Source of the DNA: Thraustochytrium sp. TN22
Lineage: Eukaryota > Sar > Bigyra > Thraustochytrida > Thraustochytriidae
Direction of reading: 5' to 3'
Assembly (NCBI GenBank): GCA_013306675.1
Contig: JABLUY010000058.1
Location: forward strand, 62,001 to 126,000
Length of the DNA stretch: 64,000 nucleotides
This document shows positions 21,692 to 64,000 of the stretch, piece by piece; the first letter of the stretch is position 1; every line of letters begins with the position of its first letter. The notes under the pieces were generated by a model. The model did not search any database and was not told the DNA's origin. It worked only from the letters and a program-made list of their open reading frames with translations. Position numbers and translations under genes: made by a program.

Positions 21692-22941
21692 CTATGCGTG
21701 GATCGCGTGAGTGATGGCATTTGCGAGCCGTACAACGGCATGGTCGAAGACCTCCCTGTCATCCTTCTGGATCAAATTGATCGAAAGGTTTGCATTGACG
21801 GAGGCCGAAAAGTTGATACGGCCATAGTGTTCGGATGGAACTTCCTCCAGCACCACACGGATAAACCTCTTGTGCATCCTCTGGGCATAGTCGAACTCGT
21901 TTCTCACATAGTTGTCCGTGTTCTTGTTGACATCGTCGACGTAAGCTCGCGTGACGAACAGCACAAATACCGGACATGCATCGATACCGCTCTGGATACT
22001 GTCCCTGAAGTTGACCGGCGCAATATTACTCTCATCGTACCAGGCCATCACTCCATGAGCGGTGAGCGCTTCGGCGACACGCCCAACCAGGAGGTGCGTG
22101 TCATTCACTGCATCAGGCGTGGAGCTCCACTTGTGAGATAAGAACGCCACAGGAGGCCTAGATTGGAACGATTGCGTGAGGTTGCGTGCCCGCGCTCCAA
22201 TGATACGGCCAAGGATGTCATCCGGGATTTTATTGCCGTCGAGATCGAGATTGCCGTCGAGATCGAGTTTGGTAAGCGTCATGTTCGGCGGATCCTGCTC
22301 TAGAGCACAGGCAAACGCCTCCCCTCCAACAAGACCGATCCTGTTCCCGGTCAGAACCAGCTCTTTAAGAGCTATGTTCGTTCGCAGGCTGCCTGCCAGC
22401 GCCTCTGCACCTACATCACTAATGTCGCATCTGACAAGCCTGGTGTGGCAGCACACGCCTAATAGTTAGTTTTGCTCTCCACAGCTGGTTGCATCCTATC
22501 CACCTACCGGATCTCCACCAGCGTGGTATTTGTCTTGAGCATTTCGGCCAACGCCTGTGCTCCAATATCCCCAACTCCTGTGTCTCCGATCCTGTTGCGT
22601 TGCATTGCGCTGCTTGTAAGTGACTCTCTGTGAACCCTCGCCGTCCATTCGCCATCGCATTGCCCCAACCACACTACATACCGCAGTACCCTGAGATGGA
22701 GGTTGTGCGCGAGACTTTGACTGAGGAAAATTGCACCTTGAGATTGAAAGCTGTTCATGGCCAGGTCAAGGTTCTCAACGCGATCGCCGTGTGAGCCCAA
22801 AACCGTAACCAGGCGCTCAACGTCATCGCCGGTCAACTTCTTGTTGTAAAGCGACAGCCAAAGCCTCGCACCAGTCGGAGCGCCTTCGCAGGTTGCAATA
22901 AAAACGTCCAGGTTCGCGGGATGCTGCCATGTTTGAGCCAT
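21692..22941 (-). CDS. LRR-TIR protein A (three exons)
   Basis: Exons on the minus strand: 22941-22682, 22591-22508, 22439-21692; introns of 90 and 68 bp with GTATGT/CAG and GTAGGT/CAG borders, both in phase 2. The join gives 363 residues. Exon 2 is exactly one 28-residue leucine-rich repeat (IGDTGVGDIGAQALAEML), and splicing keeps the ribonuclease-inhibitor-like LRR rhythm. LRRs occupy about residues 55-200. A C-terminal TIR domain follows (about 210-363): VAFLSHKW, WYDESNIAP, FVLFVTRAYV, and NEFDYA with Glu296 at the position of the catalytic Glu of TIR NADases. The ATG at 22941 is chosen because paralogue B starts at the same place with the shared RPANL/HPANL segment. A cytosolic sensor or signalling role is inferred from domains only. 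Confidence 0.8.
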
Positions 22942-25331
22942 TTCTCCAGCTGCTTCCTCGCGGGCCACCAAAGGGAGAACCTCGAGCTCGGAGAGGGCCG
23001 CGATGCAGCCCAGCGCGCCGAGCAAAGGCCACTTCAACAGACTGCGCAGTCGCAGACGCAGATGCACGACGAGTCCTCTGGGCGAGGGGGTCGGCCTTTG
23101 CGGGGGCGTTGCGCACTGCTGCAGTGTATCAAAGCGACGACCTGGGTGCGCCCGGCAAGCACGTCGATGGTTCGGGCGCCCCTGCACGTCCAAAGTTGGC
23201 CGAGTTCGCGTACCCCCCCCAACTGAAAGCTGTGCTCAGCTCCAAGCGCCCTTTTCTCCCTCGCTGCTGCTGTTCTGGTTCTGCAGCCTATTGTAGTTTT
23301 GCTGCCTGGCAGCCTGGGCCTGGTTGGTCGGGCTCGTACCCCGGAGTCCCCGCGCCACACCCGCCTCTAGGGCCTAGGCATCGTCTGATGATGAGACGGC
23401 CCGCCGGCGCCGACGGTACTAGGCCTAGGCCTAGCTAGCTAGCCTTATGAGTCATTAGTCTGTCCAGACGATCCTGTGTTCTGGCGGGCCGGTCAGGATC
23501 TCGGATCCGTCCTACCACTGCCAGACTGCAGTGCCAGTGTAACCACTCAGGCTGCGCCGCCGTGACTGGCACTGACCGTGTGTGCGGAAGTGGACTTGGC
23601 AGGCTCAGCCGGAGGGCCCGGCGGGGGGCTTTGACGAGCCAGCGTTGATCTGTCAACAAATGCAAACTTTGCAGCCAGGACTCGGAACGTTGGCTTTCGA
23701 GGGCGCCGCGGAAACAGCGGCGCATGTCAGGGTCGCCCAGGGGCGTCACAGGGAAGGCTGCGGCGACGAGGACGCTTCGGCGCTGCGGCAGAGTCTGCCA
23801 GTGGCAATATCTGCTCCGAGTCCGAGTCCAGCGCTGAGCGCGGTGGCGCGCGACGCCCAGGACCCAGGTCGCCCGCGGTGCGCGTGACGGCGGTCAGCGC
23901 GGGGGACGGTCACGGCACGCGAACGCACTGCTCAGCCCGGGCCTGCGTGTCGCAGCGTGAGGCGGCCTGAGCCGACGCAGCTGCCTGGCTGCTGCCAAGG
24001 ACTTTGGAAGAGCCGAGAGCCTCACTCATGACGACCCACTGACAGTGTCAGGCCGCTGAGGAGCGCGCGCGCGACACGCGCGTTGTTGACTGCGCAGAGC
24101 GGGCCGCGGAGACGCGTGCGCCGCGCGGTGCGGGCCATGGAGCGGACCACGGCGCGCGCGAGCGAGGGACGGCACACGAGCTGAGCGCCCGGGCTGGCCG
24201 CACGCTCGCGCGTGCGAAGCCGTGGAGCGGACAACGCCGTCACCACGGCATGCGCGAGGAGGGACGGCACGCGAACGCCCTGCAGGCAGGCATGCTGGGT
24301 TTGTCCGGCCGCGTCCGGCCTCAGCGTCGTGCGAGGTGCGTCAGCAGCGGTCAGCTGGCAGCGGTGCTGGTCTGGCGTCGGGCAGGCGCGCGCCCCCAGG
24401 CCCGCGCGGCCGCCTCCCACCTCGCCACCAAGTTCCTGCAGCGCCGTGCCCAGCCGCTCGCGCCCGACTGGCCCGAGTCGCTGTGCCAGAACCGGCGCTT
24501 GTAATCGGGCGGCGGGCGGCGGCGCTCCACGCGGATCTAGGTTCGCGCCGCGGCGCCGGCGGGGGCGGCCGCCATGGCGCGAGCGCCGCGCTGGCGGGGG
24601 GGGGCGAGGGAGGTGGCCGCGGCGCGGGCACAGGCGGTCCGTGAGCGCGCAGGCGGCAGGAGGGCACGCAGGTGCCAGTGCCACTGCAGGCGGCGCTGGC
24701 GGTGGCGCGTCGCGCGGCCGGCCCGGTTTCACGCGTTGCACGGCGCCAGCAGCGTGCACAAGCGTGCACAAGTGGGGGGGGGGCGGGTGCAGCCTGCAGC
24801 AGCCGCCAGCTGTCAGTGTTGGCAGGCAGGTGGGTATAGTGTTTCGGGACCGCGACACATCGCCGCGCGGCGAGCCGCGGCCCCGCGCGGCTCCGCTCCA
24901 AGTCGCACAGCGCACCGCGAGCTTTCTTGCTCCCAGTCCGTTGCACTCACCACAGCACGGTAACAAAGCTTCGCCTCGCAGCCTTGGCCGCTGCGGCCGC
25001 AGATCGAAACTTCGTGCTCCGAGCTTTGGCGCTTTGCTGTTCATAAGCAGGGCCCTCGCACGACCACTGCCAAGGAGTGGACGAGTCGGCCGCCTATTCC
25101 AGTATCGCTGCCACTGCCGCGCGTGCTCGGGCATTGGGGCGCGGGCCAACAGCGAGAGGCAGCCGACCTCCAAACGGGCGCCTCTGCGAGGACAGCAGAC
25201 CATCAACGCCATCAACTCCAAAGCACTGCGGATCACTCTGGTGGTTGCCTGTCCACGCACTGACGCCTGCCCCAGGTTGTGCGGCGCTCGCCAGATCCTG
25301 CCTTTCACGGCAGCGTTGAAGACCTCTGAAC
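22942..25331. other. Intergenic region, GC-rich, no supported gene
   Basis: It contains a CTAGG/CTAG-rich stretch at 23417-23444. A block at about 24590-24780 recurs at about 35530-35740 (shared gaggtggccgcggcgcgggc and gcagcgtgcacaag). Long frames on both strands lack domain sequence and look compositional. Confidence 0.5.
24590..24780. repeat. Dispersed non-coding repeat, copy 1
   Basis: The segment including gcgagcgccgcgc, gaggtggccgcggcgcgggc, acaggcggtcc and gcagcgtgcacaag is found in the same order at about 35530-35740. It lies about 550 bp upstream of the double-TIR gene. Confidence 0.65.
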
Positions 25332-26384
25332 ATGGCGTGGATGTGTTGCAAGGGCGCAAGAGAGGAAGACTCGATCCGCGATCTGGAGACTTCTTCAGAC
25401 CGACTTGAGACCCCCCACGAGGGATTCATCAAGGTATTCATATCCTACAAGTGGGGTCCGGACGAGCAAGGTCGGCCAAATCAGAAGCGCCTTCTGAAAG
25501 TTGCGGATTGGTTTTCGCAGCACAAAGAGTACGGCATTGAAGTGGTGATGGATAAGCTTTCCACGAAGAAAGACCTGCTCAAGTGGATGTGTTCGGCAAT
25601 TGACGGCTGCGATGTGTTTCTAGCGTGCCTGACGTGGAAATACTACGACGCAGTGAACCGAAGTGACAAGTGGGACAATTGTAACCTCGAGTTCGTTTAC
25701 GCGTTTCAGACGAAGCGTGACTCCATGTTGGCTATGGTCATGGAGACGCATGTACCAGCCGAGCGGGACTGGGATGGGCCTGTCGCCATGGTGATGGGCC
25801 AAAGCGTCAATCATCATCACGAGGATGATCACCACTTCGCCAGCTCAATGAACGAGCTTGCCAAGCTTATTCGCAGCTTGAAGGACAAACCGGCTCGTGA
25901 CACGGATCTTCCGATTGACAATATTCCGTCGATAGCAACGGGGGAGTACCACGTCTTCATCATTTCCGGAGAGTACGGCGGCGACATGACCGAGGCACTC
26001 GCAATGAACCTTCAAAGGCGTGGGGTGGTTTCCTGGACGCCAGACGCCACCATTGAAGGGCTGACAAGGGATTCAATGCTTGAAGCCCTCAAGAACTCTC
26101 ACGCATTTCTTCTGGTTCTCACCAAGGGTGTTTTCGCGAGCGACGCAGTCATCTTCGCGCTCAGATCGGCCATGCAGATGAAAAAGCCCATTGTTCTCGT
26201 GCATGAGGCTGACGTGCATCGCCCTGCGTATGCGAGCTTCGGTGAATACATTTCGCAGGTGCCCAGCTCCTGCTCGAACCTTTTCTCCCAAGTCGAGTCG
26301 CTACCTTTTTACCGACGTCACTATCTCGGGGAAGCCTTTTATGCTGAGCTAGTGCGTCGTTTAGCTGAGAACATGGACAATTAA
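25332..26384 (+). CDS. Double-TIR protein
   Basis: A single exon encodes 350 residues. The N-terminus MAWMCCKGA has a Cys pair that could be palmitoylated (inference). TIR1 spans about 33-150: KVFISYKWGPDEQ, VVMDKLSTKKDLL, DVFLACLTWKYY and NLEFVYAFQ, where Glu120 sits at the catalytic position. TIR2 spans about 206-330: YHVFIISGEYGGD, RRGVVSWTPD, HAFLLVLTKGVF, then VIFALRSAMQ with no Glu at the matching place. It may thus pair an active and an inactive TIR. No transmembrane segment or LRR was seen. Codon use and AT content are less extreme than in the left part of the window, as for the other TIR genes. Confidence 0.85.
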   Translation: MAWMCCKGAREEDSIRDLETSSDRLETPHEGFIKVFISYKWGPDEQGRPNQKRLLKVADWFSQHKEYGIEVVMDKLSTKKDLLKWMCSAIDGCDVFLACLTWKYYDAVNRSDKWDNCNLEFVYAFQTKRDSMLAMVMETHVPAERDWDGPVAMVMGQSVNHHHEDDHHFASSMNELAKLIRSLKDKPARDTDLPIDNIPSIATGEYHVFIISGEYGGDMTEALAMNLQRRGVVSWTPDATIEGLTRDSMLEALKNSHAFLLVLTKGVFASDAVIFALRSAMQMKKPIVLVHEADVHRPAYASFGEYISQVPSSCSNLFSQVESLPFYRRHYLGEAFYAELVRRLAENMDN

Positions 26385-28304
26385 AGAAATTACCATGTCC
26401 ATGGTGTTCACCGTAGGCGGCTCGCCGAAACCTGAGGACTTGGCCAACTCAGACCCTTCCGGTGATCAATCAAATGCCAAAAAGAGCGCGGTATCGGGCG
26501 CGCGGGGGCAGGGGTTGGGGCTGAGCGCGCCCGCGCGGTCTTGTGCGGCGTCCTTGTGAGCTTCGGGTCTTCTCCACTGGAAGCTAGGCCGGGTCGGGCC
26601 GGGCGAAGACCTGCACTGCAGGGATCAAACTCGCTTACGGGCCGAGAATTCGATCTTATCCCGCCGGGGCCGCCGGGCGGCGCCGGGCGGCGCCCACGTG
26701 CACACGCCAGGCAAGCTCGCAGGGAAGCACCCGGCCCACGAGCCACAGCGCGAAGATTTCCAGCTGGGCGTCCCATGGGTTGGTGGCTAGCTACAGGAGG
26801 CTCGGCTGGGCTGCTGCAGTGTGCTGCTCCTGCACGCGCGAGGCTGTGGCTATAAGAGTCCGGCCGCGTGCAGAGAAGCTGATTCAGCTCCTCCGAAAGA
26901 GCGCTGCCAGCACTGGCAAAACGACGCACGCGGGCGCACGACTCGATAGGAGTCAACGATAAGACTCATGTCAGCACGATGTGCGCGGCGGCGAGCGCCT
27001 TGAGTTGTAGTAGCATCTCCTTGTCGAATCTGCGGCTGGGTCCACGCTCTTCGCAGGCCTGCCCGCAAGCCCTGTTGTCCCAACACCTGGCACTGCGCTT
27101 GCTTTCACTGCCTTGGCCGCCCGTACCCGAGACCAGCTCGCACGGTCGCTGCTACGATCAGCCAGCACGCGCTGCGCTGCACAGCCCCGGCCGCACTGCA
27201 CAGGCGCTTGAGGTGGAACTTTTTGCAAGCACTGCCTCCTCTCACTGCACAGTCGGTCAAGCCCGCCATGCTGCTTCGCCTGCGCTCCGGCTGCGGCAGA
27301 TCCACCTGGAGCCACTCTCTCGCTGGCGGCGTGCGCCAGCCGCCTCCAGAGTCCAGGCCCTCGCTCGCCTGGCCCGCCCCGGCTCGCGCCCCGGAGCTGC
27401 GCCGCGCTGGCCCCGCGCGCGGCCTCCGTGCTTGCTGCTCGGCCATCTCCCATCTTCATGCCCCGCGCCGCCGCCTTCCGCCGCGCGTCGCCGCAGTCGC
27501 GCGCCGCGAGTGGCTGCCTCACGGCCGCGCGCGCCTGCCGCCGCCTGCGCCTGCGCCGCCGCCTGCCGCGCCCGCGCCGCGCCGCCGCGGCGTCGCCGTG
27601 GGTCTCGGGCTTGGAGGCGTCGAGCGTCGGCGCCCTGCTCGTGCTCGCGCCGCAGCAGCGGTACGAGCCACGATTGCCGCCGCCGCGCGCGGCTCGCCGG
27701 CAGCGCTGCCAGCGGGCTGCGCGCGGCCTCCCGCGCCGCGGCTGCTTTGCCGACAAGCCTCGCGAGTCCCGGCGCGGCGGCGGCGCCGAGTCCTCCTGCG
27801 CCGTGCTGGGCAGCGACCACGCGGAGGCGCAGCTGAGCAGGTTCTGGGTTCTCGGGCTCGGACTCGGCGGCCGCGACCGTGCAGAAGCAGGACGGGATGA
27901 TGCGCGTGGACGGGGACGAGGGCGAGGAGGAGGACGAGGAGGAGGAGCGGGACAGGGGGGGGAGGACGAGGCCGGGGCGCAGGAGATGTAGTCGAGACGG
28001 CGGCGGAGTTTGCAGGCCGGATTGGATGCCGCGGGCGCCGGACGCTGGCAAGATGCAGCGCCAGGAGCGAGGGGAGGACGACGAGCGGAGGTCAGGGAGC
28101 TGGGACGTAGGCGTGGAGCTGGATGAGAGCTGGATGGACGCGGAAATGGAGCGGGCTGAGCAGGAAAGCGCAGGTGGTAGATGAAGATGGAGGCATGGAG
28201 GTGAGCAGGCGGGACGTCGGAGTGAGGCTGCAGAGCAGCCAGAGAGTCCGGGAGGCAGAGGAACGAGGGGCATAATAGCGGCAACGCACTGGGTGTGACT
28301 TGGT
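26385..28304. other. Intergenic region, low-complexity, no supported gene
   Basis: A block at about 26596-26770 recurs at about 35878-36090 (both contain cgtgcacacgccaggcaa and gaagattt/cagattt). A G/A-rich tract lies near 27915-27975. Open frames on both strands are Pro/Arg/Ala-rich and look compositional. Confidence 0.5.
26596..26770. repeat. Dispersed repeat, second family, copy 1
   Basis: Similar to 35878-36090, including a shared tgcacacgccaggcaa and matching order of GGGCCG, CCGGGCGGCGCC and CCAGGTGGGCG-like segments. Diverged by substitutions and small indels. Confidence 0.6.
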
Positions 28305-28653
28305 CCTTGGTCGAAGATGTTCTCGCAGAAGGAGGGCGCAGCAGTAATGAACTCACCCAACGGAGAATAGCTCATGTGGTGCGGGTTCGGCTCGTAAACT
28401 ACCATACTGCGCTTGCCTGCGTCAAGAACGCACTGTAGCTCATCGAGCACAGTCAGGCTGATGAGAACGCCCTTCGTCAGGATGAGGATGTCGACGAGCG
28501 AGTGACGCACGCCGTCAAGGATGGCGGACTTGTTGAGTTGGCCGCGGAGACTCGCTGGTCGAGCCACAGCTCCAAGCCGCGGCGCTCGAGCTTGTTCTTG
28601 TGGTTCTCGGCCATGCCTCCGCCTGTAGCTTGCGTGTGGCTGAGCAGGACATG
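28305..28653 (-). pseudogene. Broken TIR-domain gene fragment
   Basis: On the minus strand a TIR start reads HVLLSHTQATGGG, then LERRGLELWLDQRVSA. After a frame change within about 20 bp (too short for an intron) it continues KSAILDGVRHSLVDILILTKGVL, TVLDELQ (Glu at the catalytic position), RSMVVYEPNP and FITAAPSFCENIFDQ. The second half aligns by eye with TIR2 of the double-TIR gene (FLLVLTKGVF, QVPSSCSNLFSQ). There is no open frame upstream of the first motif and the downstream sequence is low-complexity, so it is probably a decayed gene. A sequencing error plus an unseen upstream exon is the alternative. Confidence 0.65.
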
Positions 28654-28931: not shown

Positions 28932-31900
28932 TTATGATGTTGCGCCCGGTGTGGAGAGGCTCAGCCTCCGAGCACGTTTGAGTAGTTCATCGATGAGAGC
29001 CCGCTGCTCGTGCTCCACTTCGTACAAGTCCGACAGGAGGGACGGGTCCGGCTGGTCCGACCGCCACAGGAGGGACGGGTCCGGCTGGTCCGACCGCCAG
29101 GAGAGCACTTCCATGTGGTCGAAGAGCATGCTTCGGAATTCCTCATGAAAGTCGTCCGTCTCCGGACCGGAGAAGATCCACTCGCTCTCGACGGCCAAGA
29201 AGTGCCCCAACGCAAGCTCACGGTCTAGCTGAGGGTCCGTTTTGCGTTTCCGGCCTTGCGCTTTTGGGTCAGGCTCACCACACGTGATGCCCAGCGCGTT
29301 CTGCACGCCAGCCGCGCAGTTCGGCTCGGGCACCACGATAATCACATTCGCGCTTCTTGGACGGCCACCGACTGCAACGCCTTTCTCGCGCAGCTTCTCC
29401 TTGAGGGTTTTGGCCACGGAGGACTTGTCGCGGCCTACCACCGCAATTTTGAGCCTGCTTGTTGCTTGGCTAGGCTCTTGCGGAAGCTTGACCTGGTTTG
29501 TCTTTGCCTGCGAGAGGTTTTCGTGCGACGTGAACCTCGCAAGCTCGGCGAGCTCTTGGAGCATAGCGTCCTCCTCGTAGAGACGGCGACGAAAGGGAAT
29601 GCGCTTGCAGTGACCTAGGGCCTCTCTGGCCGCATCTAGGTACGCATGGAGTGGATCGTCGGGGTCCAACCTCGCTCCATCGACCTTGGGGACAGTGCCG
29701 AAGCTCGCGGAGCTTCCGTTCATCTTCTGTAGAGCTCGGAGGCCCCACACGAGTTCGCGCCTTCCGAGCTCGGTCTTGAACGCCTTGACCACCCTGGCGG
29801 TCCTCTCGACCTCCTCGGACCAGATCTCGATCAACTTGTCCTTCTTGTCTGCATCACGCTCAGCGCGGGCCGCGTCCAGTCTGCGCTGGCACACGGCAGC
29901 CTCTTCGGAGGCCTCCTTCTTCTGCAGCTTGAGCATTTCTGGAGGGGCAAATTCGAGGCCTTCCTCGTCGTATGACCACGGGACATCGTCCTCGTGCCAC
30001 GGGTGGAAGCGCTCGTCCATCTCTACGACGAAGAAGATGTGCTTGCGGAGCTTCTCTTTGCGAGCCTCCGTGTCATGACGCTCGGCCTCGTCCAGCTGGC
30101 TCGTAAAGTGCTCGACGGCGAACCGGAGCTCAGCGAGGCAGAATGGACGGAAGAGAACGTCCGTCGTGAGGACCATGACGAAGCACTGAGAGGTGACGAC
30201 GCCGCGATGCATGGTCTCCAGGGTGATCTCAGATGCGCGTATGTCGATCCACGTCGTCATCTGGTTGCGCTCCAGGCCTTGGGAGAGGTCCTTGACGATG
30301 CCCGCAGCCTGTGACTGCATGTGAGAAAGGAAGAAGTGGTAGGTTGGGAGCTCCAGCAGCTCCCGACGGAGCGGCTCGTACGCCCAGGCTTGAAGGCTGG
30401 AGTTCTGATCGGGGCATGGATGCATGGTCCGCCGGATCAGGCTGAAGCGGTTCGAGGGACCCATCTTCCTGAGCACTCTCCAGTGCATGCGCAGCAGCCG
30501 GTACGACAAACGGCTTTGCTTTTCTTCGGGCGGCATCCACTTATCATGGTGGCCTTGGCGGAGAGGTTCGAAGTATTCCCGATCATCGTCCAGCTCGCCA
30601 TCGCCCGGCTCCGCGTGGTCCAAGGAGAAGGGGTGCTCGAGGGGCTCGCCCAGGCTCACGTGTCCCTCGCGTGGTCCGCCACAATCCCGTCGTCCAAGGT
30701 CCGTATCGGCCGTGTCGGCCGGAGCTCCGTATCCGAAAAAGGGGTGCTCGCGAAGCTCGGCGAGGCCGATGCGTTCGTCAGGGTCACCGCGCAGGCACAT
30801 TCGAACCAAGTCCCGAGCCGCAGCGATGGCATCGTCAAGTTCATCGGCTGGTCCGCCAAGACCGAGCGGCTGCTGCTTGCCTGGGCCCTTGCTCTCGACC
30901 TTGTCGTCCAGTGGCGGGGCGCGACGGATGCGGCCAAGGCGCTCCTCGTCAATCCCCAACCAGTTCACGAGCTCCAGCTGGTCGCGTTCGAGCACGAGGT
31001 TGTCGTCCGACTCGTCCACCATGAAGAGCTTGGTGCCGGACAGCATCTGGAACAGGACTGCGCCGAAGCTCCACACGTCCAGAGCTGCCGTGGCCATGGG
31101 CGGCCCACCGTTTGCGAAAAGGTTTCGAGCTATCTCGGGCGCCGCATAACCGGAGCTCGTCTTCTCGCTGAGCGTCTTGTTGAGTTCCACCGAGGCATCG
31201 AGGTCGATGAGCATCCATCGCTCGTCCGCCGTAGTCTCTCCATCAACCGTGTTGTCTCGCCAGCTTTTTGAGACGCGGAGACCGCCATTGTCGTCATCCT
31301 CGAAGGTGCGAGACACAGACTTGGACATGCGGACCACGTTCCGCGGCTTGATATCGCCGTGGATTCGCTTGCTCGAATGCAGCTCCTGCAGCGCCTTGGC
31401 GATGCTGCGCGCGATGTGGCGGACCTTGGCCAGGTCGCGCCCGGCGAAGCGCTCCGTGTTGATCGCCTCGAACAGCGACCGAGACCCGCGCTCCATGACC
31501 AGGCAGAGGTCCCTGTCCTGACACTTGCTCTCCTCGGTGAACTGGCCGTCGCGGTCGACGCGGTTAAGCAGGCCCAGGCAGCCCTTGTGCTTCTCGCTGC
31601 GGGCATCGATCTCGCGTTCGTACTGCTTCCGATCACGCATGACCTTGACCACGACCGACAGGTTGTTCCTGACGTCCGTTGCGTGGTGGACAGCGCAAGT
31701 AAGGGATTCGTGCACGGGAGGCCCCTCTGCGATGGCGTAGCGACCCATGTACGTTCCGTACCCCCTCGCCCATGTCTGCGTGTTTGTGTTCGCCAATGCG
31801 AGCGAGCGCACGGAGCGCCCGTTGGAGTCCTCTTTACGCATGACAGCAAGGCCAGCGTCGAGACCAAGGAGCCCAAACACCTCGTCACAGAAGGCGGCAG

Positions 31901-34810
31901 GGAGCTGGAAGGTCGCACCGTCACGGCCATCGAACAGGGCGTGCATGATGGGCAGGTTTTCGGACTCATCTTCTTCGAGCCAGGTGCTGCTTTGGCGGAA
32001 GATCTCCTCTTCTTCGCGTGAAATGAGGTGGAAGAAGGCACCAAACACGTGCGCTTGCTCACGCGCCAGTTCATGCGCAAGCTCGGTCCACACCTTGCCA
32101 TGGCCATCCCTCAGCATGTAAGAGGTTAGCAGGCGCATGCGTTCATCCCAGCCCAAAGGAGCTCGGACTGCTCGATCATTTTTGTCCTTTTCACCCGTCG
32201 CCTTGGACCAGAGCTCCTCAATCGAGAGGTCTCCTGGAAGGTCCGGGAAAACGCCGCTACGAACAATTTGGTGAATTGTGTCAGCTCGACATGTTGGTGG
32301 AAAGTGCAAAACAGAAGTTGAACTCACCTCAGCGACGTCAACGAAACATTTGAGGCGAGAGGTTTGGTCAGCTCATATACGCCCTCTGAGCCGATGTTGT
32401 TGCCTCCAAGACTGTGTCGATGCGATGTGGTCGTGAGCCCGCTTGCTGCTGGCGGCTTGCCTCGGCGAGGCCCATCTCAAGCCGGCTGGCCGCGCGGCCG
32501 GACCTGCGCGCTCCGACCGCGCCGCTCTCCGCCCGTGCCACCGGCGCAAGAGACCGCGCATCACGAAGGAAGGAACTCACGAAAGCGACGTCAGCGCGCA
32601 CTGGCCGCTCCCCAGGGCTCCCGCCAGCGACCCAGCGCCCTTGTAGCCGATCCTGTTTTCACCAAGACTGTGTCGATGCGATGTGGTCGTGAGCCCGCTT
32701 GCTGCTGGCGGCTTGCCTCGGTGAGGTCCATCTCAAGCCGGCCGACCGGCGACATGTGCGGATATGCGCGCTCCGACCGCGCCGCTCTCCGCCCGTGCCA
32801 CCGGCGCAAGAGACCGCGCATCACGAAGGAAGGAACTCACGAAAGCGACGTCAGCGCGCACTGGCCGCTCCCCAGGGCTCCCGCCAGCGACCCAGCGCCC
32901 TTGTAGCCGATCCTGTTTTCACCAAGACTGTGTCGATGCGATGTGGTCGTGAGCCCGCTTGCTGCTGGCGGCTTGCCTCGGCGAGGCCCATCTCAAGCCG
33001 GCCGACCGGCGACATGTGCGGATATGCGCGCTCCGACCGCGCCGCTCTCCGCCCGTGCCACCGGCGCAAGAGACCGCGCATCACGAAGGAAGGAACTCAC
33101 AAAAGCGACGTCAGCGCGCACTGGCCGCTCCCCAGGGCTCCCGCCAGCGACCCAGCGCCCTTGTAGCCGATCCTGTTTTCACCAAGACTGTGTCGATGCG
33201 ATGTGGTCGTGAGCCCGCTTGCTGCTGGCGGCTTGCCTCGGTGAGGTCCATCTCAAGCCGGCCGACCGGCGACATGTGCGGATATGCGCGCTCCGACCGC
33301 GCCGCTCTCCGCCCGTGCCACCGGCGCAAGAGACCGCGCATCACGAAGGAAGGAACTCACAAAAGCGACGTCAGCGCGCACTGGCCGCTCCCCAGGGCTC
33401 CCGCCAGCGACCCAGCGCCCTTGTAGCCGATCCTGTTTTCACCAAGACTGTGTCGATGCGATGTGGTCGTGAGCCCGCTTGCTGCTGGCGGCTTGCCTCG
33501 GCGAGGCCCATCTCAAGCCGGCTGGCCGGCGACATGTGCGGACCTGCGCGCTCCGACCGCGCCGCTCTCCGCCCGTGCCACCGGCGCAAGAGACCGCGCA
33601 TCACGAAGGAAGGAACTCACGAAAGCGACGTCAGCGCGCACTGGCCGCTCCCCAGGGCTCCCGCCAGCGACCCAGCGCCCTCGTAGCCGATGTTGTTTTT
33701 GAAAAGACTGTGTCGATGCGATGTGGTCGTGAGCCCGCTTGCTGCTGGCGGCTTGCCTCGGCGAGGCCCATCTCAAGCCGGCCGTCCGGCGACATGTGCG
33801 GACCTGCGCGCTCGGACCGCGCCGCTCTACGCCCGTGCCACCGGCGCAAGAGACCGCGCATCACGAAGGAAGGAACTCACTTCAGCGACTTCAGCGCGCA
33901 CTTCCCGCTCCCCAGGGCTCGCGCCAGTGACCCAGCGCCCATTGGGCCGATCTTGTTGCCGTAGAGACTATGTCATGACAAGGCGATGTCGTTAGCACAC
34001 TCCTGACAAAGAGTTCTGCCGACGGGGAAAGGAGAAGGGAACTCACTCCAACGACATCAGGCTGCAGTGGCCGCTCTCGAGTGCTTGCGCGAGCGACTCA
34101 ATGCCGGCGTCGCCAATGCCGGTGCTGAATCTGCCCAGGATCCTAGGGTGTGCCAATGCAACGTCTCGTGAGTTTGCCTGCTGCGTGCTGAGGTCTCGCG
34201 GACCAAATGACGAATTTGCCGACCTTAATCGTCGCGTTTTGGCCACGCCGTTCGTTCATCTTACGTGAGTTCCGTGAGGGAGGAGCCGTGGCGCTCCAGC
34301 ACTTTCGCCAGCTTCTTGGCTGCAGTGTCATCCATCACGAATTCAATTCTACGCCGTATTCCCGTTGACAGGTGCCGTGTTAGCTTCATGTGTCGCGCGC
34401 GCCACTTCGCCGCCCAGCCCTTTCCGAACTTACTCGACCTTGGTCGCGCCGCCCTTGATCTCCCTGATCACCTTCTCCAGCCCATCGCCGTCTCCGTCCT
34501 CCTCATCCTTCTCCTCGTTGTCTCCTCCATGCTCGCTCTCACTTCCTGCGTCCTCCTCGTCCTCCCCCCCTTCTCCCTCGCCCTCGCCCTCGTCCTCGTC
34601 TTCCGCCTCCCTCTTCCCCTCCCCGCGTTCCTCCTCCCGTCCCTCTCCGTCTTCGTCTCCCTCCGCTCCCCGCCCGTCATTTCCCTCCTCCCCTCTGTCC
34701 TCGTCCTCGCGCCACTCGCTCGCCTGCTGGCTGTTCCTCCCGGCGGCGTCCGTCTCGCCGTCCTGCGCGAGGCTGGCGCGGCGCCACTTGCCCTTGACCC
34801 TTCTCCACAT
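28932..34810 (-). CDS. LRR - protein kinase - TIR receptor-like protein (11 exons)
   Basis: Exons on the minus strand: 34810-34434, 34348-34265, 34142-34047, 33967-33881, 33707-33621, 33447-33361, 33187-33101, 32927-32841, 32667-32581, 32411-32328, 32256-28932. All introns are GT-AG (GTAAGT, GTAAGA, GTGAGT donors) and all in phase 2; the sum is 1495 residues. Exon 1 is Glu/Asp-rich. Exons 2-10 encode one 28-32 residue LRR each, e.g. LGENRIGYKGAGSLAGAL. The last exon holds a kinase domain: VVVKVM (Lys), HGDIKPRN near residue 687, LIDLDAS (DLD instead of DFG), GYAAPEI and DVWSFGAVLFQML. A TIR domain follows near residues 1026-1133: YHFFLSHMQSQ, WIDIRASE and FCLAELRF with Glu near 1096. A 33-bp in-frame duplication lies near the C-terminus. 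No transmembrane segment is obvious, so it is probably intracellular. Confidence 0.78.
29027..29098. repeat. 33-bp in-frame tandem duplication near the kinase-TIR C-terminus
   Basis: Two adjacent copies containing gggacgggtccggctggtcc encode the repeated peptide WRSDQPDPSLL. The length keeps the frame. Confidence 0.85.
32412..33967 (-). repeat. 260-bp tandem array, one LRR exon plus its intron per unit
   Basis: Exons at 32581, 32841, 33101, 33361 and 33621 are spaced exactly 260 bp apart. Each has an 87-bp exon ending in a GTGAGTTCC donor and a 173-bp intron (169 for the last) with a GACACAG acceptor. Introns are nearly as similar between units as exons, with only scattered substitutions (e.g. 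gcgaggccc versus gtgaggtcc). The exon at 33881 is a more diverged outer member. This points to recent unequal crossing-over. Confidence 0.9.
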
Positions 34811-45550: not shown

Positions 45551-45719
45551 AATCCTCGCGCTCGAGCTCAGGCTCGCGCCTGCCCAAGCGCGTCAGCGGC
45601 GAGGACGCGACGAGGTCCTGGCTAGAGGGCCTGTCGGCTCTCCGCTGTCCTCCTCGTGCCGACTGCGGCGTCGAGCGCGGCGCAGCACGTGCACGGCATC
45701 GCCGATCGGCGGAGAGAGC

Positions 45720-52021: not shown

Positions 52022-53263
52022 CTATTGGCGGACTGCGTCCCTGATAAACCTAGCGAGCCGCTCAATGGCTTGATCGAAGACATCGTTGTCAGCATGGTGC
52101 GTCAGGTCAATCGAAAGGTTTGTACGGAAATTCGCCCGGAAGGCTAGACGGCGATAGGCTTCGGCTGGGACGTCCTCCAGCAGCACACGGATGATAGGCT
52201 TATGTAGCTCCTGTGCGTACTCGAATTCGTTCCTCACATAGTTGTTTGTGTTGCTGTTGACATCGTCGACATAGGCTCGCGTGACGAACACCACAAACAC
52301 TGGACAGTCAGCAACAGCGCGTTGAAGATGATCCATGAAGTTGATCGGCTCAAGGTGAATCTCATCGAGAAAGACCGCTACTCCACGAGTAGCGAGAGCG
52401 TTGGCGATACGCATGACCAGCTCGTGAGTGTCATTTTCTGGAGCACCGGGATCACTTCTCCACTTATGGGAGAGGAACGCAAGCAGTCTAGCGAGCGACC
52501 GCCTCAGGTTGCGTACGAGACCGTCAGCGATGCGAATCGTGATGCGCTCCGGGATGCGGTCGTTCTCAGCGAGATCGAGTTTGATGAGCGTCGTGTTTCC
52601 TGTCTCCAGAACAGTAGCAAGCGCTTCCCCTCCATCAGGGCCGATGTCGTTCCCGGTGAGAAACAGCTCCGTGAGAGTTGTGTTCATTAGCAGGCTAGCT
52701 GCCAGCGCCACTGCTCCTTTGTCACCAATGTTGCACTTGACCAGCCTGAAGAGGTTACGAAGGTCTAGTTAGCACTGCTCTCCCTCTCTGCTCCTTGCAT
52801 CCTGTCCATGGCACCCTCACCTACCGGATCATCATCAACGCAGTGTTCGTCTCGAGCATCTCGGCCAGCTTTTCCACTCCAGCATCCCCAACCCCTGTTT
52901 TTCCGATTCTGTGGCGTTACAATGTTCGTGAGTGACTCCTCGAGAATGCTTAAACCCCCGCCCTCGGCCTCACTCTTGTCCTGACCACTCCACTTACTGC
53001 AGCCCTTTGAGGTAAGGCTGGTCCCTTAGAGCTCCTGCGAGAGAAGTTGCACCAAGGGGCCCGAAGTTGTTCTTGGCCAGGTCAAGCTTTTCAACGCAAT
53101 CGCCATGAGAGAGCAATAACGGAACTAGGTCCTGGATATTCGCAGCGGATAACCTTTTCTCGTAGAGCGACACCAACAGCCTCGCACGGGGTGTAGCTGC
53201 TCTCCACGTGTCAATGGCCTCGCGCAGGTTCGCGGGGCGCGTCCAGGGGTCCGTGCTGCTCAT
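52022..53263 (-). CDS. LRR-TIR protein B (three exons)
   Basis: Exons on the minus strand: 53263-52998, 52908-52825, 52745-52022; introns of 89 and 79 bp with GTAAGT/CAG and GTAGGT/CAG borders, phase 2 as in gene A. The product is 357 residues. Exon 2 is exactly 84 bp, one LRR (IGKTGVGDAGVEKLAEML). LRRs run to about residue 195 (LTELFLTGNDIGPDGGEALA). The TIR domain (about 204-357) has LAFLSHKW, VFLDEIHLEPINF, FVVFVTRAYVDDV and NEFEYAQ with Glu290 at the catalytic position. It aligns with gene A from the N-terminal RPANL segment to the end with identical intron positions, so the two are paralogues 30 kb apart in the same orientation. A TIR-type NADase or signalling role is inferred. Confidence 0.82.
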
Positions 53264-55649: not shown

Positions 55650-58070
55650 TCAGCGCTTACGAACAATCGCGACAGGCTCTGGGCGGGGGTCTATTCGCAG
55701 CTGGGCGTGCACGAGCTCCCACATGGTCTCGCGGAACCAGAGGTGGCGTTGAAACGGGATCATCTGTTTGTCGAAGAGGTAGCGCAGGTCCTTGGGGCTG
55801 GCCTCACGCTCCGCCGCAAAGTCCGGTTCGCCCTGTGCGGTCTGCGGCAGGCCGTGGCGCGCTGGGTTGGTCTCATAGACCACGACGATTGGCTTTGCCA
55901 GGCGCTTCGCTTGGCGGAGTTCGAACTGCACCCAGGGCCGACATAACGCGCGATGCGTGAGAAAAAGGAGAACGGCTTTGCTCTCTTGAATGCCCTTGCG
56001 CATGGCAACTTCGTCGATGAAGGGAAAGCGTTTGTCGACCCAGACCTCGTAGCTTTGGTTGGCGAGGTCGAAGAAGAGCGCCGAGACTTGGTCCTCCGCG
56101 CTGGAGGCGTGGTGCGAGATGAAGATGTCGAAGGGCAGCTCTGGCGCCGGTGTCTGGCCTAAGGATTCCGGCTCTGGACGAGTAGCTACGGCATCTTGTG
56201 CTTCCTCGGGCTCGCAGCCGCTCTGTAGAAGAAGGGTGCTTTTTCCTGGTCCCATGAGGAGGTCAAGCAAATGCGAGGTTAGGTCCTTTCCGATGTCCGT
56301 GAGGCAAACGTCAGGATGGCCAGCAGATGTTGTCTCCAGTTCCATCGTGTAGGATGTCGCTGATGCGCTAGCCCGGGAAATGGCCGCAATCGAGGAAACG
56401 GAGAGCCTCGAGGAGTCTGGGGAGATGGCGAGTCTCTTCTCGTACTGCAAGCTCGAGTCGCGCGATATAATGATGGCCTCGGTGTCCAGAACGTACAAAC
56501 GAGCGCTGAAGGATGCGGTTCCGTCGAGAAACGAGACCTGGACATCACCATCGCACAGAAACGCCGCGCCTTCGGAACTTATTGCCGAGATGGTGCGGTA
56601 GGCCTGCACCTCGTCAAACACCTGCAGACGATCGTGGATGCGCTCAACACGCTCATTCAAGCGGTCGAGCTCAGCCTCTAGGCAGCGAACCAGTTCTGCG
56701 GCGCAGATAGACGCGGCCTTGCCACGTCTGCTGAATCGCCGCAACTTGACGCGAGACACCGGAATGACTTGCGCCAAAGCACGAAAGCTTGCTAACATCT
56801 CGCTGGGCTGGCGCTTGATTGCCTCGAACAGCTGCTCTAGCTGCATGCCCTTCGTCTCGCGCTTTTGTGCAACCCGACTGACGTCCGGGTTGGTTCGGAG
56901 GAGTGCCTTCCACGCCTCGAGCGATTCCGGCTGTTGCGCCAGGTGCTGTGCGAATGTGCCTAAAAACGGCAAGAACCGCTTTGTTGCGTCGAAGAGTGCG
57001 ATGCAAAGAGACTCGAGTTTGCCGTCTTGTACGTGCGCAAGAGCTAGATGCTGCTCTACAAAAAGCCTTTCGGCGAAACGTAGAAGCACCTCCACGTTCA
57101 CGAAGATAGCTTGCTCCTCGCTTTCGCTCAAAAGGCGGCGATCCTCGACCAGGGAGACGAGAAATTCATCGTGAACGACGCGAATGGTCTCGCCAAAGTC
57201 GGCCTGCTGCGCTTCAATGGCGCGAATTGCCTCGATGCACGCCTTCTCCATAGGCAGACCCTCCCTCTCTATCCGTTCCATCGACGCCAACCCGGGAGTC
57301 GCCGTTTCGCGGGTGTGCTGGGCAAGCTCCTGCCGCAACCGAAATTGAAAGGATTGTGGCACCTGCACAGCGTCTGACCTGCGAATCGCAGCAGGTCGAT
57401 CTCCGCCGCTGCGAGCAGGCGTTTGCGAATGTGCCCCGTTGCCGCGGAAGTGTTCAAGGGCGTTACGTCCATTCCAGCGCCTACGAACCGGCACCGTGGG
57501 AGCCTTGCTGTCCTCATATTGCTTTCGCAAGCGTTTGACGAGCCCATCCAGCACAGAAAGCTCCGTCTTGCTGGTGATGAGCTTGAACTCGAAGACAAAG
57601 AACATGAAGTGCTTGAAGGACGTGTTCATGTGCGCGGCGGCACCGAGCTCCTCGATGACCTCGAAGTGGCGGTGGTACATGATCGCGAAGATGCGGAACA
57701 TCTTCTTGAAGATATCCCTTGCGTAGTCGAGGAAGTTTTCGGGAAAGTCCTGGTCCGCGATCACCGGAAAGATCTCCTCGTTGCCCATCTGATCCTCGAT
57801 CCAGGTCATGGCGTAGTCGACGTACTCGGGCGAGGACATGCGCAGGGCCTTGGAGCCGCGGGCCTCGGCCCAGCGGTACTCAAAGTTGGGCGGGAAGCCC
57901 TCGCCCGGATTGGTGAAGCGCTGGGAATCGTCGACGAGAAGACCGTACAGGAGGGAGAGCTCGTTGAAGAAGTCCACGGTGTGTGCGGCAATCCACTCGT
58001 TCTCGTCCTCGCCTTCCGGGGTGATCACAGCGCTTTCGATAAGCCCGTCGCCCAGTGTGCGCTGAGTCAT
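55650..58070 (-). CDS. MOB1 - RhoGEF (DH-PH) - TIR fusion protein
   Basis: A single exon encodes 806 residues from the ATG at 58070; the frame is open upstream to 58157, so an upstream exon is possible. Residues about 4-175 are a MOB1/phocein domain: TLGDGLIESAV, PEGEDENEWIAAHTVDFFNE, YVDYAMTWIEDQMGNEEIFP, MYHRHFEVI and HMNTSFKHFMFFVFEFKLI. The Cys pair normally completing the MOB zinc site is absent (DDSQRFTNPGEGFPPNFEYRW region), while the His pair remains. About 280-470 resembles a Dbl-homology domain (LLSESEEQAIFVNVEVLLRF), and about 490-590 a PH-like domain. Residues about 647-790 are a TIR: FDIFISHHASS, VWVDKRFPFIDE, KAVLLFLTHRALCRPW and VQFELRQAKR with Glu717 at the catalytic position. 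It would join Hippo-type kinase-activator, Rho-activation and TIR modules in one polypeptide. Confidence 0.82.
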   Translation of the reverse strand: MTQRTLGDGLIESAVITPEGEDENEWIAAHTVDFFNELSLLYGLLVDDSQRFTNPGEGFPPNFEYRWAEARGSKALRMSSPEYVDYAMTWIEDQMGNEEIFPVIADQDFPENFLDYARDIFKKMFRIFAIMYHRHFEVIEELGAAAHMNTSFKHFMFFVFEFKLITSKTELSVLDGLVKRLRKQYEDSKAPTVPVRRRWNGRNALEHFRGNGAHSQTPARSGGDRPAAIRRSDAVQVPQSFQFRLRQELAQHTRETATPGLASMERIEREGLPMEKACIEAIRAIEAQQADFGETIRVVHDEFLVSLVEDRRLLSESEEQAIFVNVEVLLRFAERLFVEQHLALAHVQDGKLESLCIALFDATKRFLPFLGTFAQHLAQQPESLEAWKALLRTNPDVSRVAQKRETKGMQLEQLFEAIKRQPSEMLASFRALAQVIPVSRVKLRRFSRRGKAASICAAELVRCLEAELDRLNERVERIHDRLQVFDEVQAYRTISAISSEGAAFLCDGDVQVSFLDGTASFSARLYVLDTEAIIISRDSSLQYEKRLAISPDSSRLSVSSIAAISRASASATSYTMELETTSAGHPDVCLTDIGKDLTSHLLDLLMGPGKSTLLLQSGCEPEEAQDAVATRPEPESLGQTPAPELPFDIFISHHASSAEDQVSALFFDLANQSYEVWVDKRFPFIDEVAMRKGIQESKAVLLFLTHRALCRPWVQFELRQAKRLAKPIVVVYETNPARHGLPQTAQGEPDFAAEREASPKDLRYLFDKQMIPFQRHLWFRETMWELVHAQLRIDPRPEPVAIVRKR

Positions 58071-60727: not shown

Positions 60728-62112
60728 GACTCGGACCCGACCTTTCGGTTTGCAGTGCCCGCCAACCCGACCGTCACCTGGGGCACCACGGTCGACGTCG
60801 AGTTGCGAGTCTGCTGCGTGGCAGGTCGCGAAATGAACAGCGCCGCACTGCCAGTGCACCGCAGGCCCCGCACACCTCCGGTGCGGCACTGCGGCGGAGC
60901 TGTCAAAGCGCTGTCCGTCCTGCGCACTCGACAGCGGCGTGCGCTAGTACCGCAAGCCCAGGCTGCTCGTTGCGGCGCGCACGGATGCACACGGCTTGCT
61001 GCGTGAGCCCTGTCCGTGATCCCCCGCGCGCCTGACCTCGGCCGGGCCGGCTGCTACCCCTGCGCAAGTCGCAGCAAAGGCACGTGCCGCAGCCTGTCAG
61101 TGAGAGGCGGTGGCGCCGACTCGACTCTCGAAGAGGTGCAGGACTGCGCTGGCTGACAGAAGGACCCCACTGGCCGAAGCGTGCCATGGCAACTGCACTG
61201 CCTTGCCACCTTTTTCCAGACCTTGTCCAGCCTCATCCTCGCTGCGCGCAGCTGCGTGCAGCTACGTGCGCCTTGCCGAGCTTCGAGCATCCGTGCCAAG
61301 ACCAGCACGGCAACCGCGGCTGCATCACAGCAGGCGACCTCGCGAGCCTGCGGTCCGGGCGCCGTTGTCGCCACCGCCGGCGCTGAGCAGAGGCGCCCGT
61401 CGGCTGAGTGAGTGCCGAGACTCATGTGGGTTGGAGGATTGTTGGAGGTCGCCGGACGTCCTGCACATGCACATGCACAGCAGCGAGCAAGGCCGTGCAC
61501 GCGCGCCACTGCACTGGCAGTGACAGCAGCAGAGGCGGCGGTAGCGGTAAGGCGGGCCTCGCAGTAGAGAGGTCCGCTGACGGGCCGGCACCTGTCTAGT
61601 CCTAGGCCTGGTGGTGTATGGCGCCCTTTTTCGGTTTTACTTGGCACACGGCGGAGGCAGGTGCTGCGAGCTGAGTACGCCGGTGGCCGGCGGCGATCTC
61701 TTGCCAAGAGCTTTACGTGCAAGGCGCACGGCACCGCGCCCGATCGATACCAACAAGCATGTTCATTCCACTCAGAGTCAGTGCTCTGCATGCTCCTCTG
61801 GTGGCTGGCTGGCTGTCTCGACGCCTTCGCTTTGGCCTGGATGGGAGAGCGCCCTGCGCGCACTCGCGGGCGAGCGCGCGCAAGCCTAACGACCGCGCCT
61901 TCTCACAGTGTCAAAGCTCATCAGTCACCGTCAGTGCGGCCGCAAAGGCCAGAGCAGGTCGAGCGCCAGCGCAGAGGAACGGCGGCGAGCATCGCGTGGC
62001 GTCGCGTGGCGTCGCGTGGCATCGCGTCGCGTGGCGTCGCGTCGCGCGAAGAGAGGCGGCAAGCAAGTCGCACGGCAGTCGCCGCCGGAGCAAGGCTCGA
62101 GCTGCACGCGGC
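60728..62112. other. Intergenic region upstream of the zinc-finger array gene
   Basis: No supported gene. A GTGGCGTCGC simple repeat occupies about 61990-62050, about 60 bp before the zinc-finger gene start, and may lie in its 5' leader. Confidence 0.5.
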
Positions 62113-64000
62113 ATGACACCGCCCCTCTTGGCGTGGCTGCGGCACGGCGGCGCGCGCGCGGCCAAGAGGCGACGCAAGGAGGCAGAGGATGAGGTGGTGG
62201 ACCTGGTCAGCGACTCGGACCACGACGAGGACGTGGAGCGTCTACGACCCAAGTCGAAGCGCGCGCGAACCGCCCCTGCGAGCGGCAGCCCGATCCAGCG
62301 CGAGCAGCCTACGGATGAAGCCATCGAGGCAAGCCGGGCCACTCCATCAGCTGCATTCAAGATCGAAAGCCCAAGCGCCCAGCTTGCAAGCTCGAGGTCA
62401 AGCAGCGCTGCTGCAGTCGCGACGGGGACAAGCAAGGCCAGCGCACGTCCCTCCTCCGTGCAGACCACCGAGGTGGCGAAAGTCGAGGAGCAGGCGCTGT
62501 ACGTGGGACAGTTCGTGGACGCCGCGGAGCTGGACGAGCCCAGCAGCAACTTCGTCAAGATGGAGGTCCTCGCCGCGATGGACGATGCTGCTGCGGAGCG
62601 CATCTATCGCGCCGAGCAGCGGAGCAGCTCGCCCTGTCGCGGAATTCACGGGAAAAGCGCCACTCGCTGGAAGACGGGAAAACAGCGCACTTATTCTGAG
62701 TTTGTCAAAGAAGTGAAGCGCGGCGGCCTTCCTTTTTGCGGCACCCACGGGGGCGGCAAGTGGTGTCAGCATCCGGATTGTGGCAAGAGCGCTGCAGACG
62801 GCGGCCTTGCTCTCTGCAAGGCGCACGGGGGCGGCAAGCGGTGTCAGCATCCGGATTGTGACAAAAGCGCTATAAACGTCGGCCTTCCGTTGTGCAAGGC
62901 GCATGGGGGCGGCAAGCGGTGTCAGCATCCGAATTGTGACAAGAGCGCTGCAGACGGCGGCCTTCCTTTCTGCACTGCGCACGGGGGCGGCAAGCGGTGT
63001 CAGCATCCGGATTGTGGCAAGGCGATGCGGACTGGCGGTTTTCCCTTCTGCATTGCACACGGGGGCGGCAAGCGGTGTCAGCATCCGGATTGTGGCAAGA
63101 GCGCTGTAAACGCCGGCCTTCCGTTCTGCAAGGCGCACGGGGGCGGCAAGCGGTGTCAGCATCAGGATTGTGACAAAAGCGCTGCAAACGTCGGCCTTCC
63201 GTTCTGCAAGGCACACGGGGGCGGCAAGCGGTGTCAGCATCCGGATTGTGGCAAGGCGATGCGGACTGGCGGTCTTCCTTTCTGCGCTGCGCACGGGGGC
63301 GGCAAGCGGTGTCAGCATCTGGAGTGTGACAATGCGATGGAGAGCGGCGGTCTTCCGTTCTGCAAGGCGCACGGGGGCGGCAAGCGGTGTCAGCATCCGG
63401 ACTGTGACAAGGCGATGCAAAGCGGCGGCCTTCCGTTGTGCAAGGCGCACGGGGGCGGCAAGCGGTGTCAGCATCCGAATTGTGACAAGAGCGCTGCAGA
63501 CGGCGGCCTTCCTTTCTGCACTGCGCACGGGGGCGGCAAGCGGTGTCAGCATCCGGATTGTGGCAAGGCGATGCGGACTGGCGGTCTTCCTTTCTGCAAG
63601 GCGCACGGGGGCGGCAAGCGGTGTCAGCATCCGGATTGTGGCAAGAGCGCTGTAAACGTCGGCCTTCCGTTCTGCAAGGCGCACGGGGGCGGCAAGCGGT
63701 GTCAGCATCAGGATTGTGACAAAAGCGCTGCAAACGTCGGCCTTCCGTTGTGCAAGGCGCATGGGGGCGGCAAGCGGTGTCAGCATCCGGACTGTGACAA
63801 GAGCGCTGCAGACGGCGGCCTTCCTTTCTGCACTGCGCACGGGGGCGGCAAGCGGTGTCAGCATCCGGATTGTGGCAAGGCGATGCGGACTGGCGGTCTT
63901 CCTTTCTGCGCTGCGCACGGGGGCGGCAAGCGGTGTCAGCATCTGGAGTGTGACAATGCGATGGAGAGCGGCGGTCTTCCGTTCTGCAAGGCGCACGGGG
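62113..64000 (+). CDS. Zinc-finger array protein (C-x4-C-x11-C-x2-H repeats), 3' end outside window
   Basis: The frame from the ATG at 62113 is open to the window edge (629 codons). The N-terminal 200 residues are charged and Ser/Ala-rich, with a basic patch (AAKRRRKEAEDE) that could be a nuclear localisation signal and VDLVSDSDHDED, a SUMO-interaction-like motif (inference). From about residue 205 come at least sixteen tandem 26-residue units of the form KRCQHPDCDKSA, then GGLPFCKAHGGG, giving C-x4-C-x11-C-x2-H. The same finger class is common in oomycete and algal proteins annotated as WRKY19-like; a nucleic-acid or regulatory role is likely but unproven. Units fall into a few sequence types (DKSAADGG, GKAMRTGG, DNAMESGG) that recur in blocks, indicating higher-order duplication. 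Confidence 0.85.
   Translation, partial: MTPPLLAWLRHGGARAAKRRRKEAEDEVVDLVSDSDHDEDVERLRPKSKRARTAPASGSPIQREQPTDEAIEASRATPSAAFKIESPSAQLASSRSSSAAAVATGTSKASARPSSVQTTEVAKVEEQALYVGQFVDAAELDEPSSNFVKMEVLAAMDDAAAERIYRAEQRSSSPCRGIHGKSATRWKTGKQRTYSEFVKEVKRGGLPFCGTHGGGKWCQHPDCGKSAADGGLALCKAHGGGKRCQHPDCDKSAINVGLPLCKAHGGGKRCQHPNCDKSAADGGLPFCTAHGGGKRCQHPDCGKAMRTGGFPFCIAHGGGKRCQHPDCGKSAVNAGLPFCKAHGGGKRCQHQDCDKSAANVGLPFCKAHGGGKRCQHPDCGKAMRTGGLPFCAAHGGGKRCQHLECDNAMESGGLPFCKAHGGGKRCQHPDCDKAMQSGGLPLCKAHGGGKRCQHPNCDKSAADGGLPFCTAHGGGKRCQHPDCGKAMRTGGLPFCKAHGGGKRCQHPDCGKSAVNVGLPFCKAHGGGKRCQHQDCDKSAANVGLPLCKAHGGGKRCQHPDCDKSAADGGLPFCTAHGGGKRCQHPDCGKAMRTGGLPFCAAHGGGKRCQHLECDNAMESGGLPFCKAHG
62764..64000. repeat. 78-bp coding tandem repeat
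   Basis: The tgtcagcat motif recurs every 78 bp from 62764 to 63934 (sixteen starts). Blocks such as GKAMRTGG followed by DNAMESGG occur twice (about 63240-63360 and 63860-63980), so several units were copied together. Confidence 0.95.

Follow-up and report, generated by a model that had tools for sequence, protein, structure and literature searches.

To our knowledge, the TIR proteins of microbial eukaryotes have been little studied. Choanoflagellates are described as carrying kinase-TIR proteins, as well as TIRs in combination with Ank, Arm, and SH2 domains (PMC6040629); the word RhoGEF is absent from the main text of that paper. In plants, a published list of resistance-type genes includes an Arabidopsis NBS-LRR entry with Mob1 (At.43365; PMC3532234), and integrated decoys are described as domains that may lose activity and keep binding in a paper whose main text mentions neither Mob1 nor phocein (PMC4759884). 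According to PMC2684140, Mob proteins are ~210 to 240 amino acids (aa) long, and of 192 Mob-like proteins practically all have a zinc site, with yeast Mob2 as the accepted exception. The zinc ligands of human MOB1 are given as C79, C84, H161, and H166 (PMC4917820; PMC2684140), its basic pocket (K153, R154, R157) is assigned a role in phosphate binding (PMC4917820), and its D63 is described as contacting H646 of LATS1 (PMC7096357). As for Dbl-type modules, the report on the DH-PH unit of obscurin states that no exchange was detected in vitro (PMC10118190).

We analyzed a 64,000-nucleotide stretch of Thraustochytrium sp. TN22 (contig JABLUY010000058.1, positions 62,001 to 126,000), referred to here as the window, for a protein that brings these modules together. 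On the minus strand, a single uninterrupted frame without internal stops runs from an ATG at 58070 to a stop codon at 55650-55652 and encodes 806 aa; that one open frame links the parts had been stated in the initial annotation. Of the domain order that it proposed, MOB1-DH-PH-TIR, Pfam recovers MOB1, TIR, and, marginally, DH; the PH module is seen only weakly, in low-confidence models and Foldseek matches. The features of the frame are as follows.

55650..58070, minus strand: 806-aa open reading frame plus stop, MOB1 - DH - PH-like - TIR (ORF translation)
57567..58061, minus strand: MOB1/phocein domain, residues 4-168 (Pfam E 3.2e-55; PDB MOB1A/MOB1B chains)
57306..57515, minus strand: linker A, residues 186-255 (limits as drawn), 210 bases
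56829..57191, minus strand: DH (RhoGEF) match, residues 294-414 (Pfam, predicted helices, Foldseek Vav1)
56235..56585, minus strand: PH-like region, residues 496-612, six strands plus C-terminal helix (low-confidence model)
56136..56234, minus strand: linker B, residues 613-645 (limits as drawn), 99 bases
55653..56135, minus strand: TIR domain plus C-terminal extension, residues 646-806 (Pfam TIR_2; resembles the window's other TIRs)
55920..55922, minus strand: codon of E717, the TIR catalytic-position Glu (W713-V-Q-F-E717)

The frame remains open 5′ of the ATG up to 58190 (40 codons) without another ATG, and an upstream exon is therefore possible. The 806-aa protein has no match in NCBIfam, blastn at E 0.01 found no second DNA-level copy of the gene within the window, and neither Rfam at gathering score nor a tRNA search returned anything across the 64 kb.

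The N-terminal MOB1/phocein assignment made in the initial annotation is confirmed by Pfam (Mob1_phocein, 187.2 bits against a cutoff of 27). A PDB search returned MOB1A and MOB1B chains (E 3e-52 to 3e-49), followed by yeast Mob1 (1e-36) and yeast Mob2 (∼2e-28); no other MOB class appears in this match list, and the match to MOB1 chains, which outrank the Mob2 chains, extends to residue 182. By sequence, the MOB part is thus closest to MOB1, and it has the same residue as MOB1A at 81 of 179 aligned positions. All four conserved-face residues of MOB1A (E51, E55, D63, H185) are identical in the fusion and W56 is kept too; we take E51 and E55 to be kinase contacts. The phosphate-pocket residues K153, R154, and R157 correspond to K122, K123, and R126, and T35, an MST site of MOB1, aligns with T5 in the PDB-search alignment. 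Surfaces through which MOB1 binds NDR/LATS-type kinases and phosphorylated peptides are retained in this domain, and similar partners may be bound here.

The zinc site is a different matter: C79, C84, H161, and H166 align with S49, N54, I130, and H135, so that one ligand in four is kept. The Cys pair is lost, as had been noted from the sequence earlier, whereas the His pair then thought to be intact is not, one His having been replaced by I130; the pair seen at that time aligns with H164 and H166 and is not the zinc pair. Loss of both zinc cysteines has a precedent in yeast Mob2, as described in PMC4917820 and PMC2684140. Heading an 806-aa frame and missing three of four zinc ligands, the MOB part departs on both counts from a family of short proteins that are nearly all zinc bearing (PMC2684140).

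In the middle of the protein, the Pfam RhoGEF match at residues 294 to 414 falls just under the cutoff of 27.6 bits in the whole protein (25.9 bits, E 1.3e-5), reaches 27.6 bits when residues 255 to 640 are searched, and passes it with residues 255 to 520 (28.7 bits, E 1.8e-6); as controls, this last segment was reversed once and shuffled three times, and none of the four sequences matched RhoGEF, even at E up to 10. DH domains are marked by a Glu in CR1 and a QRxxRY motif in CR3, both also present in the intersectins. In a shallow alignment of four rows (the fusion, two intersectins, and a hand-written consensus), the CR1 Glu aligns with Q289 and QRxxRY with KRxxSE, and the Pfam match spans profile positions 14 to 133 of 180, ending before CR3. 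Exchange on Rho is for these reasons doubtful, and the DH domain is probably one that does not exchange nucleotide. The Dbl-type RhoGEF of the initial annotation thus stands as DH homology, and exchange activity is unsupported. We rejected the idea that a frameshift conceals an intact CR3: across residues 400 to 460, neither of the remaining sense frames contains a QRxxRY-like motif.

Structure prediction had been proposed earlier as a check on each segment. The full-length model, made without an alignment and of low confidence (mean pLDDT, 36.8), places helices between ∼240 and 490 and, after them, strands and one helix (597 to 604), which is the DH-PH order. In Foldseek, this model matched MOB1B best (E 6e-7); Mob2 came second, Vav1 chains took ranks 3 to 7, and designed proteins followed from rank 8. 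Only rank 1 falls under E 0.001, the best Vav1 chain (probability, 0.95; E 5.3e-3) has a TM-score of only 0.23 of the target, and no TIR structure is among the best 50 of 454 matches. Pfam found no PH family in the middle region. Modeled alone (mean pLDDT, 43.2), the PH-like piece retrieved PH domains at Foldseek ranks 1 and 3, with no match reaching significance (best E 0.78). A PDB sequence search with the middle segment returned nine designed proteins and one peptidoglycan-binding protein and no DH or PH chain. Because both models are of low confidence, we treat the fold matches as weak support, and the PH fold of residues 496 to 612 is putative. Overall, the region resembles Dbl-family RhoGEFs (Vav1 by Foldseek, intersectin by alignment) in having a DH match followed by a putative PH-like module and appears to differ from them at the CR1 and CR3 key positions of the four-row alignment.

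A C-terminal TIR with the catalytic-position Glu, also recognized in the initial annotation, is borne out by Pfam (TIR_2 at residues 649 to 733, E 1.3e-9, 39 bits against a cutoff of 28). The Glu is E717, in the motif WVQFE, with W713 four residues before it, and both align with the Glu and Trp of three PDB TIR chains. This spacing, which is that of the SARM1 motif, is a likeness to SARM1 and bacterial TIR NADases; unlike SARM1, the fusion has no ARM or SAM match in Pfam. PDB matches of the TIR are weak (best E, 0.007; AbTIR, 0.07; TIR-1/SARM1, 0.1) and are interleaved with ribosomal protein S7 (E 0.06) and other unrelated chains. ThsB_TIR scored 18.3 bits with the whole protein and 22.5 bits with the segment (cutoff, 21.2), below TIR_2 both times, and the PADLOC ThsB model matched the protein at E 1.2e-6. 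The catalytic Glu is described as critical for TIR NADase activity yet present in >70% of all TIRs (PMC7075850), and E717 is therefore permissive for, rather than proof of, an NADase; the fusion TIR may have such an activity.

The initial annotation had presented the fusion in isolation. We scanned 28 other frames of the window (selected among the longer ones, with a few short) with Pfam and searched all 1234 stop-to-stop pieces of at least 25 aa with a profile of four window TIRs. Besides the fusion, the window holds five TIR loci.

21695..22465, minus strand: LRR-TIR frame, paralogue of 52025-52768 (Pfam)
25320..26381, plus strand: tandem TIR-TIR frame (Pfam, TIR profile)
28298..28653, minus strand: TIR remnant, divided between two frames, limits approximate (TIR profile)
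28935..32372, minus strand: kinase-TIR frame, 1146 codons (Pfam)
52025..52768, minus strand: LRR-TIR frame, paralogue of 21695-22465 (Pfam)

The fusion is thus one of several fusions in a TIR-rich region. In a comparison set of six proteins, its TIR shares 34% identity over 79 residues with that of the kinase-TIR frame and 29% over 131 residues with the second TIR of the tandem (E 4e-6 in each case). The two LRR-TIR frames, ∼30 kb apart, are 54% identical over 248 residues. Counting the remnant, there are seven TIR copies, and six of them have Glu at the catalytic position. The exception is the second TIR of the tandem, where Ala takes its place; the first keeps the Glu, and the tandem may combine one active and one regulatory TIR. 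The kinase-TIR frame resembles the choanoflagellate "Kinase TIR" class, adjoins the TIR remnant, and lies just downstream of a 260-bp tandem repeat (6.1 copies, 32380-33957). Elsewhere in the window are a TPR-rich frame of nephrocystin-3 type with a 126-bp tandem repeat (47252-49234, minus strand), WRKY19-type zinc finger repeats (61675-64000, plus strand; 16 stretches matched), which lie in a 78-bp tandem array extending to the end of the window, and a weak match to the CxC6 cysteine cluster of KDZ transposases (44620-45843, plus strand; 18.8 bits, below the cutoff of 27.5).

Searches for relatives beyond the window, in viral contigs, prokaryote genome contigs, and phages, found none. They comprised scans of viral contigs with the full protein and with the MOB part (single-protein scans, reaching mainly close relatives), a scan of viral contigs with a three-row TIR alignment, a scan of prokaryote genome contigs with the TIR part (again reaching mainly close relatives), and tblastn of the full protein against phages. 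Among open-licence PMC papers, we found no report of a TIR domain together with MOB1 and RhoGEF, in agreement with the earlier remark that no described protein is known with the order MOB-DH-PH-TIR. One candidate paper mentions a TIR domain, Dbl homology, and a RhoGEF domain, but for separate genes and in a reference title. Among the papers listed on TIR proteins of haptophytes, microalgae, and unicellular eukaryotes and on MOB families and fusions, none was relevant beyond those cited here. The fusion is like the choanoflagellate Kinase TIRs and intracellular TIR fusions (PMC6040629) in joining a protist TIR to signaling modules without a transmembrane part. It is also like plant NLRs with integrated domains, once Mob1, in that an immune protein carries a host signaling domain, and is unlike them in having no NB-ARC match in Pfam.

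Our preferred reading, to which we give a probability of roughly 45%, is that one gene encodes a TIR effector with a MOB1-class adaptor as input, a probably noncatalytic DH-PH scaffold, and a clustering-driven output. The MOB1-class N terminus would receive the input through NDR/LATS-type kinases or phosphorylated peptides, and the degenerate DH-PH would more likely hold or place the protein, at a Rho GTPase, the membrane, or the cortex, than exchange nucleotide. Partners of the MOB or DH-PH parts would then cluster the protein so that its TIRs assemble, and the assembled TIRs would cleave NAD+ or relay the signal to other TIRs, of which several lie within ∼37 kb. The DNA itself shows the open frame, homology to MOB, DH, and TIR, which residues are kept or lost, and the TIR-rich surroundings; partner binding, clustering, NAD+ cleavage, the PH fold, and a single mRNA are what we infer.

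The main rival to this reading is an integrated decoy, because the residue pattern resembles the loss of activity with retention of binding described for decoys (PMC4759884): zinc ligands and, in the shallow alignment, DH key positions are gone, and the MOB binding face is kept. MOB1 and DH-PH would then copy host hubs attacked by parasites or viruses and serve as bait on a TIR effector, with no part in normal MOB/Rho signaling. That the window's other TIRs bear other modules (kinase, LRR) fits such an origin, as does the Arabidopsis NBS-LRR entry with Mob1. We suspect, however, that this entry may be a gene-model fusion, and we know of no attacker of MOB in this organism. The kinase-facing MOB residues are also well conserved, and Pfam at E up to 1 finds no NB-ARC- or NACHT-like switch in the 806 aa. 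We hold the decoy to be unlikely, if worth keeping in view. If instead the DH-PH were an active exchange factor for a Rho GTPase, regulated by the MOB and TIR parts, the DH match and the DH-PH order would be accounted for, but not the Gln at the CR1 position, the KRxxSE in place of QRxxRY (four rows, one of them a hand-written consensus), or the end of the Pfam match at profile position 133 of 180; we consider this improbable.

Other explanations question the gene itself; the preferred reading would have the whole frame carried on one mRNA. Frame length alone proves little, because the same GC-rich window (57 to 72% per 2 kb) holds an 850-codon frame at 8179-10728 in which Pfam (E up to 0.01) finds nothing. 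A MOB1 gene and a DH-TIR or TIR gene might lie head to tail and be in frame only by coincidence, or be separated by an intron that escaped notice. In 5,000 shuffles, linker A was stop-free in 11.8% and linker B in 36%, as chance sharing would allow, but the DH-PH region was stop-free in none. We trained a codon score on six of the window's other domain-bearing frames and compared all six reading frames in 10 segments. The fusion frame ranked best in seven (narrowly in the PH segment, 0.07 versus 0.04, and with a score close to zero in the 40 codons upstream of the ATG) and tied in one, the helix before the PH; it was not best in either linker, and the linkers thus show no coding preference for it. 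The chief result against a single old gene is a step in GC3 where the MOB part ends, from 0.85 in MOB to 0.61 to 0.78 in linker A, DH, PH, and TIR, with 0.52 around linker B. Two separate genes might show this pattern; the joining of a MOB1 module to a TIR-type gene would account for it as well, GC3 being 0.61 to 0.75 in three of the window's other TIR frames. No stop codon closes the MOB part, the linkers are short as drawn, and every part shares one frame; we consider two genes distinctly unlikely. Least probable is a decaying gene or an assembly chimera without a product: the lost zinc ligands and DH key positions and the TIR remnant elsewhere in the window are in its favor, and 806 codons without an internal stop and codon periodicity in the MOB, DH, and TIR parts speak against it.

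Among open PMC papers, there is no earlier report that we could find of MOB1 and TIR in one protein, and the fusion, if it is a true single protein, would consequently tie the Hippo-type kinase adaptor directly and physically to a TIR effector. The kept and lost residues make both MOB-kinase binding and TIR NAD+ cleavage testable. A broader picture, possible though held with considerable doubt, is of a protist in which Hippo-type growth control is wired directly to TIR immunity or cell death: the MOB1 module would sense the state of NDR/LATS kinases or serve as bait and would trigger the TIR NADase through a noncatalytic DH-PH, and the gene would be one of several TIR fusions that domain shuffling has produced in this region.
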